Part shown: piece by piece, positions 8,247 to 26,656 of the stretch
Position numbering within the stretch: the stretch's first letter is position 1
How the letters are laid out: each line of letters begins with the position of its first letter
DNA from: a virus
Length of the DNA: 36,378 nt
IMG/VR virus record: IMGVR_UViG_3300025941_000427
Coordinates: 1-36,378 of that record
Strand: one strand, 5' to 3'
The notes under the pieces: model-generated
Database searches by the model: none
Seen by the model: the letters and a program-made list of their open reading frames with translations, nothing else
What the model was told of the DNA's origin: nothing
Made by a program: the position numbers and the translations under genes

Positions 8247-9326
8247 TTAGTCGCTATCCTCAAAGGTTTCACCTGAACTACCATCGTGAATTGATGATGG
8301 TTTTTCATCAATTTCAGCATTCAAAATGTCATCAGATTGAGCATCATCCATTACAATAAGACCTTCTAAATCACCAAAATCTGGTCTTGGCTTTGGTCTG
8401 CTGGATGGTTGTCTGACAGTTGGAGGTGGCTCTTCGATGCCCTCTTCCATCATTTTATGAGCCTTCCATTTCTTGTAAAATTCATCAAAAGATTTTGGTT
8501 GAGGAACGTCAACATTATTATCATCAGCCATATTGAATTCAGTGCCGTGATGCTTAAGGTTTTCCACCATTTTCTCTGGCGTCAATCCCTTAGTATGCCA
8601 ATCACTCACTGAAAGCGGATTCTTTGGCTTATGTGGCTTTCCTCTAACATCATTATCATCAAGCCCTAATTCTTGAGCAATGCTCTTGAAAACTAATTCA
8701 TCTGGACTTGGCTTATCATCTTGCTTTGGTTGCTTGAGAAGACTTTGCATCTCAATTTCTTGACCGGGTTGAACTCCGACTGGACCAGGGTTAGCCATCC
8801 ATTGAGAAACATTTTGTTGAAAATTTTCAGATTCGGATGGTCTATTCGGATCAATTGGAGCCATTGGATTCTCGATCCATGACATGAATCTCTGAGGAGA
8901 GCCCTCTGGATTCATTAATTCGGCAGCTTCTTCTTCACTCATAAGATTATGTCTACCAATGAAAGAAGCAATTTCTTTATCAGTATATCCTAATCTTCTA
9001 AATGCAGTATTTACTCTAGCTTTAGAAAAAGCATCACCCTTACCTAATCCTTTTAGATCGGCTTGGGTTACACCATTTTCCATCAATGATTGCATTGATG
9101 GCATCATCTTTACTTTAGTATCATGCTGAGCGGCAATTTTAGATAAAATCTGAAGAACTTGTTCTGCCTTAGCAGTCATGCCAGCCTCTTCAAAAATTTG
9201 AGCCGCAGAATGAAGATACTCCACTGCCTGAACAAGACTATTCATGCCTTGCTTTTTTTCATGAGAGTGTAGCTCGCGCTGCATTCCATGGATTAGCTCA
9301 TTTTCAAAAAGACTTTTTTTGATCAT
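8247..9326 (-). CDS. Helical virion-block protein, long paralogue of 9338-9565
   Basis: This protein has 359 residues. The first ~67 residues (MIKKSLFENELIHGMQ..., then an EEAGMTAKAEQV hairpin and LSKIAAQ) match the whole of the 75-residue protein encoded just upstream, so this looks like a tandem duplication in which one copy gained about 290 residues. The added part is hydrophilic, rich in Pro, Asp and Glu, with an acidic C-terminus (GETFEDSD) and little predicted globular structure. GAGG lies before the ATG. Possibly a head-core or assembly-adaptor protein; no enzyme motifs are seen. Confidence 0.55.
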   Translation of the reverse strand: MIKKSLFENELIHGMQRELHSHEKKQGMNSLVQAVEYLHSAAQIFEEAGMTAKAEQVLQILSKIAAQHDTKVKMMPSMQSLMENGVTQADLKGLGKGDAFSKARVNTAFRRLGYTDKEIASFIGRHNLMSEEEAAELMNPEGSPQRFMSWIENPMAPIDPNRPSESENFQQNVSQWMANPGPVGVQPGQEIEMQSLLKQPKQDDKPSPDELVFKSIAQELGLDDNDVRGKPHKPKNPLSVSDWHTKGLTPEKMVENLKHHGTEFNMADDNNVDVPQPKSFDEFYKKWKAHKMMEEGIEEPPPTVRQPSSRPKPRPDFGDLEGLIVMDDAQSDDILNAEIDEKPSSIHDGSSGETFEDSD

Positions 9327-9337
9327 TATTCCTCAAA

Positions 9338-9565
9338 TTAAGAAGTCTTGCCGGAAAGCTGTTGAGCCAATCCCTGCAAGACTTCAGTTACTTCATCAGC
9401 TTGTTCGGTCATGCCGGCCTGATCAAAGATCTCGGCAGCAGCATTTAGATAATCAGCAGCTTGTGCTAGCTTACTAAATCCATGCTTATCTTCAACTTGT
9501 TTTGCAACAAGTTGCTTTTCCATCGAATGATAGATCTCGTCTTCAAAGCTGCTTTTTTTAAACAT
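9338..9565 (-). CDS. Small helical protein, short paralogue of 8247-9326
   Basis: A 75-residue protein made almost entirely of the module shared with the next gene: MFKKSSFEDEIYHSM, then FSKLAQ, then an A-x-I-F-D-x-A-G-M-T-x-x-A-D hairpin. GAGG precedes the ATG at a normal distance. Predicted to be two or three helices. Because it is a free copy of a domain attached to a larger neighbour, it may dimerise with it or dock on the same partner. Function unknown. Confidence 0.55.
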   Translation of the reverse strand: MFKKSSFEDEIYHSMEKQLVAKQVEDKHGFSKLAQAADYLNAAAEIFDQAGMTEQADEVTEVLQGLAQQLSGKTS

Positions 9566-10340: not shown

Positions 10341-12722
10341 TTAGAACATTCTCTTGGAAGTCTTAGCAAGTGCTGCGGACAATTGAGACCAATCATCTTC
10401 TGCTGAGACAGCAGTATTGATTTCACCAGAACCAATTACGCCAACTTGTGGTAGACGACCGGCAGTTCTACGTAGAGGTTCATGCTTTGCAACTACTCTC
10501 TTAAGAGTTTCGAAGTTTGCTTCGTTGAAGCTCATTAGCTCATCAACGTGAGCGGAGATAACATTTCTGTCATTAGCAACTAAGCCACGGTCAACCATTT
10601 CATAGGTCATCTCGTAAGCTCTGGCCATCTTGACCTTGAACTTGTTAAGTTCTTCTTCAAGTTGAGCCTTAACGTGCTCCTTGACTAGTTCGCTTGCGAA
10701 CTCAGATCCACCGTCTACTTGACCGTAGAACTTCTTGTAGTAAGAAACTGCATCCTTATCCAAACCTTCAGCTACTAGAGCGTCCAAATCGGATGGGTCA
10801 AGCTTTCCTTCAGAAACTAGTCTGTGGATTGCTTCTGCTTCCTTACGAACCTTAGGTGGAGCCTTTGCAAGTTCCATCATAGCCTGGTTGACTTCTGGTA
10901 AGGTTTCGACCTTTCCTAGATTATCAGATGGCTTTACATCAAGTTCAGTCTGGCCATCAGCAAGCTTATCGGCTGCATCAAGCATGTCGCTAAACTTAGC
11001 GTGAGACATATCTTGAATTTCACCGTCATCTTGCTTGCCTAGTGCATCGGCAGCTAGCTTGGCACGAAGTGCGGCACGACCTTCTCTGGAATCAAAGGAA
11101 GCCTGAACAGTTACTTCGGTACCTGGCTTGACATCTAGACCCTTCTTCAACTCTTCTGGAGTTGCCATTAGGTCATTTGCGTCATCAACGGCCATGCCAG
11201 TCATTTCAGCTAATTCATCATGTGCTTCGCCCATGTGATCATTATCATCATCAGCCATTAATTCCTTGACAGCATCCAAATCGGAGTTGGTGTCAGAAAT
11301 CATGGCCATCAAGTCATCGCCATTGTTGGCGTCTAGTTCGCCTGTCATATTCTCTCCTTCAGCTAATGCTTCAAGTTCTGCTTCAATTTCTGCGCGCTTG
11401 ACAATAGCTTTGGTTCCACGAGCATATTTGACGAAAGCGGTCATCAATTTGAATCCATCTGCTACGGCAGACTTGGCTTCATTTAGCGCATCTTCAACAA
11501 TAGTACCAACAAACTCTTGGTTAGAGTTAGTTACAGCGCCCTTGTCGTAAAGACCAGAGATCATGTCAAGCTCTTGTGCATGGTCATTTAGGTTAGCAAC
11601 TGCTTCCTTCATGGCATGGGTAAGTGCGCCATTAAGTTCTTTTCTCAATCCGTTTAAGGTTGAGGTGCTAAAGGATGCTGCTGCGCCCATTTCTGGAGCA
11701 GAAGCGCCTTCCATCTCGCCCATTTCGGCTTGTTCACCAGTTAATGCTCTAACAGCTTCAACAAGGTCTGAACTTAGGTCTCTAACTTTTTCTGCCAAAT
11801 CAGCAGCGGCTGCCTTTGGATCACCAGACTTGCCAGTGTCTTCGGCTGGAGGTGCACCTGCATCAGGAGCTGGTGCAGAAGAATCGGCTGGAGGTGGAGC
11901 ACCTGCGTCAGCGGCTGGAGGTGGAGGAGCAGCCTGTGCACTCTTTACAAGTGCGGCTACCTTCTCAACTCCACTAGTCTTTACCTTCTCAAGTAAGCTA
12001 GTTCCAAATTCCTTAGTAGCGATACTTCCGTATAGCTTGCTTGGACGACCACCAGATAGATCATTAACAGAGGCGGTTAGAATAAGTTTGTCACCACGGT
12101 AAACTTCCCAAGCACTGTCGCCTAGGTTACGGGTACCATCTTCATTGGTAGCGTAAACGAACTTGGCACTTAATGCGGAAGCTCTACGTAGCATTTCCTT
12201 ACGCTTTAACTCATCAGAGGTTTCAGCGGATTGTGGGGATGGGTGCATACCATCGACTGGGCCAACACCTGGGAATGGCTTTTGACCAACCATGTGCTTG
12301 TCGTCTCTCTCACGAAGGACGTACTCAAGCTTGTCAACTGGATACTTTGGCTTGCCTGGAGTTGGAGTTCCTGGGTTGTTGCCATCACCGTTTTGGAAGT
12401 AAGCAGTCTTGTTTTCAAGAGCTTGCTTAGCAAGGTTCACGATTGCAGAACGGCGAGCAGCTCTCTCTTCGGATTCAGCACGAGCAAGCATCTTCTTACG
12501 TTGTAGTTCGTCAGAAGGGTCGGCGGAATCTGGAGATGGGTGCATACCATCTACGGAGCCAACTTCTGGAAATGGGGATTGACCCACCATTTGCTTATCC
12601 TCTTTTTCACGAAGTTGCTCGTTGAGAGGATCTTTTGGATACTTGGCTTGACCTGGGGTAGGCTCGTTTACGCCACCAGCGCCTTGATAATAACCCTGCT
12701 TATTAATATTTGTACCTGACAT
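10341..12722 (-). CDS. Nested scaffold protein from internal start (predicted)
   Basis: Within the protease gene, AGAGGA (12727-12732) precedes an in-frame ATG at 12722. This ribosome site and spacing closely match AGAGGATATT-ATG of the 9580-10311 gene. The product would be the last 793 residues: two MVGQ-x-PFP-x-VG-x-VDGMHPSP repeats, an Ala/Pro linker and a long helical acidic region, all without the protease. This matches the plan of phage lambda C/Nu3, where a scaffold is made from inside the protease gene in the same frame. The alternative is that the site is fortuitous and only the full-length protein is made. Confidence 0.5.
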   Translation of the reverse strand: MSGTNINKQGYYQGAGGVNEPTPGQAKYPKDPLNEQLREKEDKQMVGQSPFPEVGSVDGMHPSPDSADPSDELQRKKMLARAESEERAARRSAIVNLAKQALENKTAYFQNGDGNNPGTPTPGKPKYPVDKLEYVLRERDDKHMVGQKPFPGVGPVDGMHPSPQSAETSDELKRKEMLRRASALSAKFVYATNEDGTRNLGDSAWEVYRGDKLILTASVNDLSGGRPSKLYGSIATKEFGTSLLEKVKTSGVEKVAALVKSAQAAPPPPAADAGAPPPADSSAPAPDAGAPPAEDTGKSGDPKAAAADLAEKVRDLSSDLVEAVRALTGEQAEMGEMEGASAPEMGAAASFSTSTLNGLRKELNGALTHAMKEAVANLNDHAQELDMISGLYDKGAVTNSNQEFVGTIVEDALNEAKSAVADGFKLMTAFVKYARGTKAIVKRAEIEAELEALAEGENMTGELDANNGDDLMAMISDTNSDLDAVKELMADDDNDHMGEAHDELAEMTGMAVDDANDLMATPEELKKGLDVKPGTEVTVQASFDSREGRAALRAKLAADALGKQDDGEIQDMSHAKFSDMLDAADKLADGQTELDVKPSDNLGKVETLPEVNQAMMELAKAPPKVRKEAEAIHRLVSEGKLDPSDLDALVAEGLDKDAVSYYKKFYGQVDGGSEFASELVKEHVKAQLEEELNKFKVKMARAYEMTYEMVDRGLVANDRNVISAHVDELMSFNEANFETLKRVVAKHEPLRRTAGRLPQVGVIGSGEINTAVSAEDDWSQLSAALAKTSKRMF

Positions 12723-13913
12723 ATTTTCCTCTTGTTTGTTTGTAGAAGTGTTTGCTAACTTATCCAAGCTTTCTTTCATTTGGCTCAACTTGGTCTCGAT
12801 GGCCGTTGTGACCTCTCGAAGTTCAGCGATAGGGTCCACCCCTACTTCAGCGGTCGCGTATCTTGCATGTGGGGGAGCCAATCCAGAATCAGTACTTGGA
12901 ATTTCCTCCAAGCCTTGATCCGATGCCAAATCATTAGTATCTTTTTCAGAAATTTTAGCAGAGGCATTAATCTCGCTTAATTTCGCAAAAGCTTTATCAA
13001 CGTCTTCCTTGAACTTGGCAAGGTCGGTTGAGTTTACTGTAAATTGTGCACTGCCTCCACCTTCATGACCTTTAGGATCATTAACAGTTAAAGTGGCGGA
13101 GAATGATAAATCTGCTATTCTGTTAAGCTCTTCTTGCTTACTCTCGACATAGCTGTTTAGTGTATTTGCAGCAGCAATAATATGTTTAATATTAGCTTTT
13201 GGATCTGCACCATTTACAACAATGGATAATTCAATTGGGTTTAAATCTACGTTAATTTCACCATAGCAACTCTTACGTCTCATATGGTCACAGAAGTCAG
13301 CTTCTGTACGGGCTACCTTGGCACAATCTGAACAGATGGCCTTTCCAACAGCGGTACCCATGGACACACAGTTAGAAACTCCGGTAGCTACTTGTCTTGC
13401 TAATTGTGGATACCCGGCCTTGTCTAAGGCACATAGAGCAATTACTCTCTTGAGATTGCGGTCATAATAGGTATCAACAATAAAGCCTCTTACATGATCT
13501 ACTGAACTTGATTTATGATCAATGCAAAGAGGCTTTCCGACCCATTTCCTATAAGCTCTTACTAATTCTTCCTCTGGAAAGATATCTCCGTTGGAATTCT
13601 TATAAGGCTTAATGCTAGGGTCATTACTCATCCAGCGCCAAGTACCACCAGCTTTATCCCAGCCTACTTGGACAGTCTCTCCTTTAGCGTTTAGCTTTGG
13701 AGTTCCATCATCATTAAGGCAAGATGCTTCAGCGGCATGCATCATGACAGCAGAGAAGTATAAAAAGTCTTCTGCCTTTGGAGCAACCTTCTTTAGGTTG
13801 GCTGCAAACTTTTTAAAGTTCTCCAAAATTTCAGGGCTGACAGCAGGAAGACACGACTCCGTGGCCTCTACTCTGCTAATCTCAATCAGTTCACCTAGTT
13901 TTACAAATGACAT
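10341..13913 (-). CDS. Prohead protease fused to scaffold-like C-terminus
   Basis: This 1190-residue protein starts with a capsid-maturation serine protease. H133/H140 sit in a 'DHKSSSVDHVRGFIVDTYYD' segment (132-151). A Ser nucleophile candidate S184 lies in VSMGT, and ELSIVVNGADPKAN (228-241) matches the E-x-S-x-V-x-x-x-A-x-P end typical of the HK97-type protease family. Between the last two lies CSDC-x10-C-x7-C (194-216), a probable zinc site not usual for the family. After about residue 260 the protein is helical, acidic and Ala/Pro-rich, like a scaffold. It has a tandem repeat at 405-479 and 502-578 and an Ala/Pro linker near 660-700. An in-frame start at residue 398 with its own ribosome site suggests a separate scaffold product. 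It is three times the length of a normal protease. Confidence 0.75.
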   Translation of the reverse strand: MSFVKLGELIEISRVEATESCLPAVSPEILENFKKFAANLKKVAPKAEDFLYFSAVMMHAAEASCLNDDGTPKLNAKGETVQVGWDKAGGTWRWMSNDPSIKPYKNSNGDIFPEEELVRAYRKWVGKPLCIDHKSSSVDHVRGFIVDTYYDRNLKRVIALCALDKAGYPQLARQVATGVSNCVSMGTAVGKAICSDCAKVARTEADFCDHMRRKSCYGEINVDLNPIELSIVVNGADPKANIKHIIAAANTLNSYVESKQEELNRIADLSFSATLTVNDPKGHEGGGSAQFTVNSTDLAKFKEDVDKAFAKLSEINASAKISEKDTNDLASDQGLEEIPSTDSGLAPPHARYATAEVGVDPIAELREVTTAIETKLSQMKESLDKLANTSTNKQEENMSGTNINKQGYYQGAGGVNEPTPGQAKYPKDPLNEQLREKEDKQMVGQSPFPEVGSVDGMHPSPDSADPSDELQRKKMLARAESEERAARRSAIVNLAKQALENKTAYFQNGDGNNPGTPTPGKPKYPVDKLEYVLRERDDKHMVGQKPFPGVGPVDGMHPSPQSAETSDELKRKEMLRRASALSAKFVYATNEDGTRNLGDSAWEVYRGDKLILTASVNDLSGGRPSKLYGSIATKEFGTSLLEKVKTSGVEKVAALVKSAQAAPPPPAADAGAPPPADSSAPAPDAGAPPAEDTGKSGDPKAAAADLAEKVRDLSSDLVEAVRALTGEQAEMGEMEGASAPEMGAAASFSTSTLNGLRKELNGALTHAMKEAVANLNDHAQELDMISGLYDKGAVTNSNQEFVGTIVEDALNEAKSAVADGFKLMTAFVKYARGTKAIVKRAEIEAELEALAEGENMTGELDANNGDDLMAMISDTNSDLDAVKELMADDDNDHMGEAHDELAEMTGMAVDDANDLMATPEELKKGLDVKPGTEVTVQASFDSREGRAALRAKLAADALGKQDDGEIQDMSHAKFSDMLDAADKLADGQTELDVKPSDNLGKVETLPEVNQAMMELAKAPPKVRKEAEAIHRLVSEGKLDPSDLDALVAEGLDKDAVSYYKKFYGQVDGGSEFASELVKEHVKAQLEEELNKFKVKMARAYEMTYEMVDRGLVANDRNVISAHVDELMSFNEANFETLKRVVAKHEPLRRTAGRLPQVGVIGSGEINTAVSAEDDWSQLSAALAKTSKRMF
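12180..12410 (-). repeat. Copy B of the YFQG module (scaffold residues 502-578)
   Basis: Encodes KTAYFQNGDG, a TPGKPKYP segment, LRERDDKHMVGQKPFP, GPVDGMHPSP and DELKRKEML. The MVGQ-x-PFP and DGMHPSP blocks are nearly identical to copy A, whereas the YFQ start is closer to the nucleotidyltransferase copy. Confidence 0.7.
12477..12701 (-). repeat. Copy A of the YFQG module (scaffold residues 405-479)
   Basis: Encodes KQGYYQGAGGVNEP, then KYPKDPL, REK-D, MVGQSPFP, VDGMHPSP and DELQRKKML. It is in tandem with copy B, 97 residues later, and is also found in the nucleotidyltransferase at 25661-25903. The first ~41 bases match that third copy at about 32 of 41 positions on direct comparison, which suggests duplication rather than chance. 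Confidence 0.7.
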
Positions 13914-14194: not shown

Positions 14195-14848
14195 TTAATT
14201 ACCTGATTGTGATGATTTCTCCTTGATAATGTCGTTAAGCTGATCCTGACGTTGGTTGAAAAGGTCAATAATTAGTGGTGTTTTCTCTTCAATATTCATT
14301 TGAAGATCGGTACTAACATTGTCCACCCAGCTTGTAGCTAAGATATTAGTTTGAATATGGTTTTTAATTCTTTCATCAATAATTTCATCAATTTCTTCGC
14401 ACTGCTTTTGAATATCTTCAAGCGCCTTCACTACATCTTGTGGGAAAGACTTGGCCTCTAAATCAGCAAAAAGATCGACAAGTTTATTAACCTTGACTTC
14501 TAAATCATCAATTGATGAAATAAAAGATTTCATTAATTTCAAGGTCTGAGTATCAGATGAAAAAATCTGCATTACATTAACGCAGTTAAAAGCTGCTTTT
14601 TTGAACTTATTGAAATTATCGACGGCTTTATCTCTAAATCGTCTAATAGCAGCTCTAGCCTTCATTACTTCCTGGGGATCCATTTCTGGGTTATCCTTGA
14701 AGGGAGTCTTCATAATATCCAAATGATCAGATGCCATCTGTAGCATCTTAGCGGCATGCTCAAAATACAAAAGGGCCTGTTCTGCCTGCGTTTTCTCCGC
14801 ATCAGACACATCGTAGGTCATTTGTACTGCATAAGCCTTCTTAATCAT
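14195..14848 (-). CDS. Helical virion-block protein
   Basis: I set the start at ATG 14848 (217 residues, MIKKAYAVQM...), which overlaps the phosphatase stop by eight bases. A longer reading to 14953 would bury 113 bases inside the phosphatase gene. The protein is all-helical, with heptad-like stretches and a hairpin (ALLYFEHAAKMLQMASDHL) similar to those in neighbours. It starts with a KxA motif. No enzyme motif, zinc site or membrane segment is seen. Probably an assembly or internal virion factor. Confidence 0.5.
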   Translation of the reverse strand: MIKKAYAVQMTYDVSDAEKTQAEQALLYFEHAAKMLQMASDHLDIMKTPFKDNPEMDPQEVMKARAAIRRFRDKAVDNFNKFKKAAFNCVNVMQIFSSDTQTLKLMKSFISSIDDLEVKVNKLVDLFADLEAKSFPQDVVKALEDIQKQCEEIDEIIDERIKNHIQTNILATSWVDNVSTDLQMNIEEKTPLIIDLFNQRQDQLNDIIKEKSSQSGN

Positions 14849-15611
14849 AGATAAAATTACCTGGGTTTGGTTCAACGGGTCCGAAGCCTCTACCACCCGC
14901 ATCGTTGTCGTAAACGCCAACCATTGGAACAGTATCTTCTTCCTGAAGATCATGTTCTTTTATTGACTTGCTAGAATGATAATTTTCACGGGTTGGAGAC
15001 TGATCCATAATGAAATTATACAAAGCATCCATAGGATTTTGCTTCGTAACACTTAAATAGGGAGCAAAAGAACCCTGATGCCCCTCATCTAAGAATGAGT
15101 CTCGATTATCGCCAATGTACTCTCGTTCGTTGGAGACTATATCAGCTTTGTTCTCATCTTTCGATGGCTTACATTTTCTAATAAGCTTTTCAAAAGTTGA
15201 GATGGGTCTTGGATCAACATCTAATCCGAATCCTAAAGACTTAGCTTCTTCAATAGCTTTCTCAGGATCTTTGCCTAGATACTTGCATTGAACTAGAGCT
15301 ACAGCCAAACCTGTTCGGTCTTTTCCGGCCGCACAGTGAACGTAAGTAGGGCCGCCTTCTAGAAATAACTTCTTTAGATCATGACTAAGAAACTTTAATA
15401 GAGAGTGTTTAAAATTTTCCATTTCAATAGGAAGCTCTATATGATTAATTCCTAAGAGCTTACATGCTCTATTAATTCTATCGCCAGCAATCTTATCAAG
15501 ACTAACGATCTTTTTAATCCCTAATTCCTCTTTTAACCACTGAACATCTTTTGGGGATGGGGCGCTGCCTCGGTATAGATCTTTGGTTACTTTTCTTAGC
15601 CTGTGAATCAT
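14841..15611 (-). CDS. Tyrosine/dual-specificity protein phosphatase
   Basis: This 256-residue protein opens with LYRGSAPSPKDVQWLKEELGI, the usual start of the small dual-specificity/Tyr phosphatase fold, and has the P-loop HCAAGKDRTG (92-101) with nucleophile C93 and R99. It should hydrolyse phosphotyrosine, phosphoserine/threonine or a phosphoinositide-like substrate. The catalytic domain ends near residue 150. The last ~100 residues are a polar extension ending in a Gly/Pro-rich tail (GGRGFGPVEPNPGNFIYD). Being inside the head gene block, with a non-catalytic tail like other virion proteins here, it may be packaged and injected, or act in assembly. The upstream ribosome site is weak; a one-base gap to the previous gene suggests coupling. 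Confidence 0.8.
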   Translation of the reverse strand: MIHRLRKVTKDLYRGSAPSPKDVQWLKEELGIKKIVSLDKIAGDRINRACKLLGINHIELPIEMENFKHSLLKFLSHDLKKLFLEGGPTYVHCAAGKDRTGLAVALVQCKYLGKDPEKAIEEAKSLGFGLDVDPRPISTFEKLIRKCKPSKDENKADIVSNEREYIGDNRDSFLDEGHQGSFAPYLSVTKQNPMDALYNFIMDQSPTRENYHSSKSIKEHDLQEEDTVPMVGVYDNDAGGRGFGPVEPNPGNFIYD

Positions 15612-25096: not shown

Positions 25097-26656
25097 TTAA
25101 ATATTCCATTTATCTTCATAGATGAGACTTTCCGGTCCCAAAGTTCCATAATCTGGATTCATTTCATCAATTATGGTATCTTCTTCTTCCGAATGGTTAA
25201 ACCCATCTGGCAAGCCGTATAAATCTGAATCTTGTTCATGAGATAAGTATTTATCCATTATTTGGCTTAATAATTCTTCATCTACCGAATCACCATCTTC
25301 CTCATAGTCGCGGCCATAATTTAAGGTAGTTGGTGGTTTACCCTCAAAGTCAGGGTAGAATAGGGGAGGCTCGCCTCCACCAATTTCGGTGGCGTGCATA
25401 AAACTGGAGTTATCTCCTAGATTTGGGAATCCAGGGAAAGTACTCATATCACCAGGTTCACCTTCAGGTCCAAGCATAAAAAGCCTCTGAAAAGAAGCGT
25501 CGTCATGCTCAGGAGGAAGGGTCTCAATTTCATCATCTATTGGAAAATCAATAGCAGTTTTCATAATTTGCGAAATTAATTCGGCACGTGCTTTGATTTG
25601 AGGATTTTTCTTGGTAATTTCCCCACTGTCCTCAATCCAGGAATCATCAGCCTTGTACTTGTCCTTCATCTTCTTGCGCTTGGCCTTTAGAAATTCAGAG
25701 ACGCTTTTATACTTTTCCATGGAGTGCCAACCGGCTCCGGGGCCGATGTGCTCGAATCCAGGGATGTCGTAAAGGTCGTAATTACGATAGAAGGGTTCCT
25801 TGAAGCGCGTTTGATTGACAATGGCTGGGTCAGACTTGTATTTTTTCTTTTTAGGAGCTGGCTCATTAACACCACCCCCGCCTTGGAAATAAGCCTGCTT
25901 TGGCATCCCCTTAGCTTTCATATAGTATGGTTGAACTACTTCGGTAATTGGAATCTCTTCCCATAAATTCATTTTGCTAATATAGAAAGCGGCCTTATCA
26001 GCATCACGATTAAATGCTTCATTCAATTTTTCAGTCATTGCTTTTTCACTAGCAATTTTAACTGAAGATGGATTTCTAGTAACGTAATCAATGATACTTT
26101 GATCAATATCAAAATCTAATTTGGAAGCTAAATAAATAGCTCTAATTACTCTATTCTTGTTAGAAGTTAAAGTAATTTCTGGAGACAAACAAGTTTTGAT
26201 TTTTCTTTCCTTAATATCTTGAAAGCCTTTGTGAGTTGGATCTATTAGATTTTTAAGATCTAAAGACAATAGTAGAGCGTTACAGGTAAAATCCCTGCTA
26301 AACATCTCTTTTTGCATCTCAGTTGGGCGAGCAATTCCTTGCTTAGCAAGAATGGCATCAATATTTGGTACATTAAAATTGGAAGAAAAGTCCATTTTAA
26401 ATGAACCAATGTAAATGGAACTATGACCATCATCATGATCTCTTCTAGTTACATTGTATTTTTTGCCTAAAATAGTGCCGAATTCTGAAGATAAATATCC
26501 AACTGTCTTGTCACCAGTTGTAATGTCTAAATCCGAAATATTCTCCAAGTGCTTGAGATAGCGATCTCTAGGCGTACCACCGCAGATATAGGCTTCAGAT
26601 GAGCCTATTTTCTTTTGGGTATCCTGCATTTGTTGGAGAAGTTCTCGAAGTTTCAT
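25097..26656 (-). CDS. tRNA nucleotidyltransferase-like enzyme with virion-type extension
   Basis: The first ~245 residues are a class II nucleotidyltransferase of the CCA-adding/poly(A) polymerase type: GGTPRD (26-31), catalytic Asp pair D42/D44 in SDLDI, RRDHDDGH, RDFTCNAL (121-128) and the R-V-I-R-A...K-L-x-F-x-I-D element (169-184). It should add nucleotides to RNA 3' ends. The rest is not the usual tRNA-binding body. Residues 252-332 are the YFQG module also found twice in the scaffold (PKQAYFQGGGGVNEP, later GPGAGWH...SEFLKAKRKKM), and the tail is long and acidic. The start codon is not backed by a clear ribosome site. This placement and fusion suggest a virion-packaged or assembly-linked RNA-modifying enzyme, though a role in repairing host or phage tRNAs is the family default. 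Confidence 0.8.
   Translation of the reverse strand: MKLRELLQQMQDTQKKIGSSEAYICGGTPRDRYLKHLENISDLDITTGDKTVGYLSSEFGTILGKKYNVTRRDHDDGHSSIYIGSFKMDFSSNFNVPNIDAILAKQGIARPTEMQKEMFSRDFTCNALLLSLDLKNLIDPTHKGFQDIKERKIKTCLSPEITLTSNKNRVIRAIYLASKLDFDIDQSIIDYVTRNPSSVKIASEKAMTEKLNEAFNRDADKAAFYISKMNLWEEIPITEVVQPYYMKAKGMPKQAYFQGGGGVNEPAPKKKKYKSDPAIVNQTRFKEPFYRNYDLYDIPGFEHIGPGAGWHSMEKYKSVSEFLKAKRKKMKDKYKADDSWIEDSGEITKKNPQIKARAELISQIMKTAIDFPIDDEIETLPPEHDDASFQRLFMLGPEGEPGDMSTFPGFPNLGDNSSFMHATEIGGGEPPLFYPDFEGKPPTTLNYGRDYEEDGDSVDEELLSQIMDKYLSHEQDSDLYGLPDGFNHSEEEDTIIDEMNPDYGTLGPESLIYEDKWNI
25661..25903 (-). repeat. Third copy of the YFQG module, in the nucleotidyltransferase
   Basis: Encodes KQAYFQGGGGVNEP followed by a Lys-rich stretch and a block around FEHIGPGAGWH...SEFLKAKRKK, aligned with FPGVGPVDGMH...SDELKRKEM of the scaffold copies. 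The first ~41 bases are about 78% identical to copy A by eye. Confidence 0.65.

Follow-up and report, generated by a model that had tools for sequence, protein, structure and literature searches.

Two proteins encoded about 13 kb apart share a peptide of about 26 residues, the YFQ motif, which occurs twice in the prohead protease-scaffold protein and once in a small disordered partner of a nucleotidyltransferase (NTase). With a probability of roughly 0.45, this motif would be a linear head-assembly element of the scaffold that is carried also by the partner and recruits it, together with the NTase where the two are fused, to the prohead. The sequence analysed, here called the window, is a virus fragment of 36,378 bases from IMG/VR (IMGVR_UViG_3300025941_000427); the records of the large relatives with which it was compared reach 481 kb. 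All main genes of the window are on the minus strand, among them those for the large terminase, the portal and the protease-scaffold fusion, and the NTase and its partner are encoded beside the terminase and portal genes. The features concerned are as follows.

10341..13913, minus strand: prohead protease-scaffold fusion, 1190 aa (phrog_18299, head maturation protease, E 1e-14; phage G gp19)
13158..13811, minus strand: protease domain, homologous to phage G gp19 (H133 and SMGT 184-187 invariant in 22 relatives)
12477..12704, minus strand: scaffold repeat 1, with the YFQ motif at 12627-12704
12180..12413, minus strand: scaffold repeat 2, with the YFQ motif at 12330-12413
25916..26656, minus strand: NTase domain, aa 1-247, head and neck of class II only (Pfam PolyA_pol, E 1.3e-10)
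25826..25900, minus strand: enzyme-side copy of the YFQ motif, aa 253-277, common to the scaffold, predicted disordered
25664..25798, minus strand: GLY motif, NYDxxx..GPGxG..xMxKYKSVSEFLKxKRKK, basic, absent from the scaffold (profile A5, E 8.5e-23 in the window)
25553..25564, minus strand: MKTA, aa 365-368, a hydrophobic-K-x-A candidate site for the prohead protease
25097..25660, minus strand: disordered C-terminal part of the fused partner, with the terminus GLPDG...YEDKWNI

The scaffold protein has the properties of a tailed-phage prohead protease-scaffold, namely protease homology, the Ser/His pair (S184, H133) and a portal-scaffold-capsid gene order; in the relative L049, a match to a phage G-like major capsid protein is found about 10 kb beyond the scaffold gene. 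The match to gp19 of Bacillus phage G spans aa 35-237 of the scaffold ORF (E 3e-20; 34% identity across 17% of the query), and gp19 also contains the sequence L-V-K-T-A; it is, however, a separate protein of 300 aa without a motif-bearing scaffold, and phage G yielded no match to the NTase protein. The predicted structure of the scaffold is largely of low confidence, and an interaction surface is not readable from it. Two copies of the motif are present in 108 of 109 distinct scaffolds, the remaining one having one clear and one degenerate copy. Between the portal and protease-scaffold genes of the window (14841-15611, minus strand) a dual-specificity/tyrosine phosphatase-like enzyme is encoded (Pfam Y_phosphatase3, E 1e-8), and 3' of the scaffold gene two proteins (8247-9326 and 9338-9565, minus strand) have an N-terminal segment in common, KKSxFExEixHxM...; judged from this sequence, they are possibly paralogous core or internal proteins.

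The enzyme ORF (25097-26656, minus strand) contains KQAYFQGGGGVNEPAPKKKKYKSDP at aa 253-277, and two related stretches are present in the scaffold ORF. The original prediction, that a module of the enzyme ORF recurs twice in the scaffold, is borne out in part: in composition-preserving shuffles of the window copies, none of 2000 scored as high as the enzyme copy against scaffold copy 1 (z = 15.6), and a scaffold-only profile, built from 160 scaffold copies without enzyme-side sequences, matched 33 enzyme-side proteins (E 2.6e-10 to 5e-3) and picked up nothing unrelated from 7,869 other ORFs. The module had been thought to keep its order of blocks over 81 aa, and here the prediction went too far. 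The first 30 residues (z = 14.5) account for nearly all of the score against copy 1; beyond about aa 280, the similarity to copy 1 is at chance level (71 of 2000 shuffles score as high) and that to copy 2 is weak (4 of 2000). As the profile alignments are almost confined to model positions 1-27, and as a profile of the second half (the last ~50 residues) found no enzyme-side protein while that of the first half found 34 (E 2e-13 to 9e-3), the common element is a peptide of about 26 residues, with the consensus NKxAYFQGGGGVNEPTPxxxKYxxDP, and not an 81-residue module. The motif is predicted to be disordered and AlphaFold yields no structure for it; neither relatives of the module among solved structures nor the module itself in annotated phage records were found.

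The identity at the DNA level, estimated by eye at about 78% for part of the sequence, is 72% when measured over the 39-base core in the window. Since the identity of the core between the enzyme side and the scaffold is no higher within genomes (0.758) than between genomes (0.762), a recent exchange between the two genes by recombination or gene conversion is ruled out, and the identity stems from conservation of the protein rather than from a recent copy of the DNA. Across genomes, the core has an amino acid identity of 0.83-0.88, while the codons at identical residues agree in only 0.47-0.53 of the cases; conserved residues without conserved codons indicate that the peptide has long been under selection in the two proteins. 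An alternative core, GTEEP, also occurs in both proteins and is found simultaneously in both in four sampled lineages, with G002, G004 and G017 being discordant; counted per sampled lineage, this is suggestive of co-variation between scaffold copy 1 and the partner.

In whole relatives, the motif is present twice in the scaffold, once in the NTase partner and in no further protein; a search with a 26-aa profile of 21 records, from 113 kb for the smallest to 481 kb for the largest virus record, gave matches at E < 0.01 in these two proteins only. For the relatives searched, a packaging tag of general use, borne by many proteins, is thereby ruled out. The motif is not obligatory either: 8 of 45 partners lack it at the same locus, with the scaffold copies still in place, and such a loss without a change of position is what the original prediction had itself named as a refutation.

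That a non-catalytic module is common to enzyme and scaffold proved half right: the segment is shared with a chain linked to the enzyme but is not part of the NTase, and mostly belongs to a separate gene. Among 45 distinct NTases, 30 end before the motif, which then opens a separate, overlapping gene downstream, 13 are fused to the motif-bearing partner and two have another C-terminal fusion. On the tree, fusion to the motif amounts to three changes, only one of which is forced by well-supported (starred) branches, and the window ORF lies in one of the fusions; two further relatives have NTase fusions of the GLY type. Where the genes are split, the motif begins 2-8 residues past the start codon, the position expected of a targeting peptide; in the fused form of the window it is internal (aa 253). 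The partner is a small, disordered and basic protein adjacent to the NTase, and in the window ORF 270 residues after the NTase domain are predicted by AlphaFold to be disordered. Its GLY element (NYD...GPGxGLYxxMxKYKSVSDFRKKRRK) directly follows the NTase in 18 of 18 large relatives.

The locus varies in several ways. In L079 (3222-5597), the ORF of the NTase is 792 aa long; about 340 additional residues, among them a J-domain-like stretch in which YPD replaces HPD, separate the NTase from the YFQ motif. The partners in L054, L058, L073 and L074 are longer and contain additional GLY copies (NFDYGKGLYxNMxKYKSVxDF) as well as short Cys-rich inserts. In L012, an in-frame TAA (11082-11084), either a sequencing error or natural, splits the partner into a motif piece of 107 aa and a C-terminal piece of 131 aa, and G008 (L220:3-5844, minus strand) contains, as insertions among the genes surrounding the NTase partner, two HNH-like ORFs and one for a small repeat protein. 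The contig of one relative, 383 kb long, was binned with a Chitinophagales MAG, perhaps wrongly, and offers a lead to the host.

The NTase resembles class II CCA-adding enzymes in its head and neck fold and in the GG..RD, DxD, RDFTxNA and DPT motifs; AlphaFold models aa 1-250 with a pLDDT of about 50-89, followed by disorder, and Foldseek gives matches to 4wby (8e-10) and 1vfg (1e-9). The motifs GGTPRD, DLD and SRDFTCNA are intact in the window, and the catalytic residues G26, G27, R30, D31, D42, D44, R121, D122 and N126 are kept in 45 of 45 small NTases. The differences lie in what selects the base and holds the tRNA. In class II enzymes, the template Asp and Arg pair with C and A, and the body and tail domains hold the acceptor and T-psi-C helices of the tRNA (PMC3925840). 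The small NTases, which as separate genes encode about 250 aa, lack body and tail and have a disordered partner instead; they have [ST]NxxR for EDxxR (SNKNR in the window), the Asp position being taken by Asn in 42 of 45 sequences and by Ser, Gln or Lys in the remaining three, the Glu mostly Ser or Thr, and the Arg kept. The curated CCA-enzyme family NF009814 is not reached (57.9 bits versus a cut-off of 290). Because the tRNA-binding domains and the base-selecting Asp are both missing, the protein should not be named a tRNA CCA enzyme. (U,G)-adding mutants of the template residues have been engineered (Cho et al., as cited in PMC8563995 and PMC3925840), and, judged from its chemistry, an Asn at the template position could favour U or G.

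A first alternative to head recruitment is that the NTase acts on RNA 3' ends in the cytoplasm, in the maturation or repair of phage tRNAs, with the partner supplying the missing RNA-binding surface and the motif stemming from an ancient duplication with a role outside assembly. The intact catalytic residues and a partner that is basic and always adjacent fit this, as does G006 (L222-L232), where some 30 tRNA genes, many of which do not encode the 3' CCA, occur with the small NTase as the only one found. Yet the template Asp is replaced throughout the 45 sequences, and selections of the human enzyme for CCA or A addition yielded no variants in which the Asp or the Arg had been replaced (PMC11784652). 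Further, body and tail are lacking, and while the small NTase is encoded in 20 of 20 large relatives searched, eight of these (L212-L219) have in addition a full-length CCA-adding enzyme (ORFs of 415-466 aa) in which the template motif is intact (EDGLR in 8 of 8); in seven of the eight it is encoded about 30 kb from the small NTase. A cytoplasmic role thus appears rather unlikely, without being far-fetched. Two unannotated "phage" matches, MT835510 and MT837203, were set aside, as their neighbouring ORFs indicate that they are apparently bacterial contigs with ordinary CCA enzymes.

Recruitment to the head is what a segment common to a scaffold and an enzyme-linked chain naturally suggests, namely an assembly partner shared by both, and the proposal draws on the sharing of the peptide, its conservation, its N-terminal position, the genomic place of the genes and the repeated fusion. 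The motif of the scaffold is likely to make contact with some other head protein while the head assembles, and would be reused by the partner. According to this scenario, the small disordered partner of a divergent head-and-neck NTase gained the motif, or retained it, at its N-terminus; the motif would bind a common head-assembly partner, either the capsid shell or some other protein of the core, and the partner protein would thereby be pulled into the prohead core together with the scaffold and the NTase carried along wherever it is fused, as in the window, before the prohead protease would trim the assembly at K-x-A sites. Several points count against recruitment: 8 of 45 partners do without the motif at an unaltered locus, AlphaFold predicts no structure for it, adjacent, overlapping genes can become fused by chance, and the motif is present on only one protein beside the scaffold, unlike a general cargo signal.

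A close known analogy comes from phage T4 with its capsid targeting sequence (CTS), an N-terminal propeptide of 10-19 residues by which proteins are brought into the core; foreign enzymes fused behind it have been packaged (PMC9026906). As in the CTS of the T4 internal proteins IPI-III, the YFQ peptide is short and N-terminal in the split genes, and the T4 head protease is related to the protease encoded here. It differs from the CTS, which is shared by several internal proteins, in being found on the scaffold, where it occurs twice, and on one partner per genome, and in being internal when fused; its packaging and removal are putative. In phage SPN3US, N-terminal propeptides of head proteins are removed by the prohead protease, which cuts after A-X-E (PMC10052503); the scheme proposed here likewise involves N-terminal segments of head proteins, but the candidate site is K-x-A.

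This candidate bears on a second alternative, in which the prohead protease would recognise the YFQ motif or dock to it, and the motif would mark the partner as a substrate of this protease. The scaffold copies of the motif do share a polypeptide with the protease domain, and 31 of 34 partners have a conserved hydrophobic-K-x-A about 110 residues past the motif, C-terminal to the GLY element. The extended form hydrophobic-K-x-A-[QSR], a motif class picked after the fact, is about 3-fold enriched in the structural proteins of the window and G006 and not in the rest of G006; many structural ORFs of the window (938-25033, minus strand) provide examples such as LVKEAQ, FVKIAQ, LVKTAS and LVKLAR. 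However, the K-x-A specificity of the protease is putative, other structural proteins have such sites without a YFQ motif, and the partners in L013 and L017 retain theirs though the motif is lost, which makes docking to the protease an unlikely explanation.

Chance or low complexity, for which the glycine run inside the core might speak, which the original prediction had named as a possible refutation, is practically dismissed by the shuffles and the scaffold-only matches, by bias-corrected profile E-values down to 1e-13 and by the conserved flanking residues Y, Q, NEP, P and KY.

If recruitment of the partner to the head is taken further, the NTase itself may have become a virion-associated, head-assembly-linked enzyme, derived from a CCA-adding enzyme of which head and neck remain, with Asn for the template Asp and with entry into the prohead by way of a partner bearing the scaffold peptide. 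Its base choice would possibly be shifted toward U or G, and it would perhaps be delivered into the next host. Taken together, this is a doubtful proposition. A search of the open-licence literature turned up no paper in which virions contain a tRNA nucleotidyltransferase, and no virion proteome, binding test or cleavage data for this clade.

A peptide common to scaffold and cargo is a concrete candidate for how giant phages choose their internal head proteins. The NTase, in turn, is found throughout the clade and is automatically annotated as a tRNA enzyme though two defining features are absent; if it is present in virions, or if its base preference differs, it would represent a new use of the CCA-enzyme fold.
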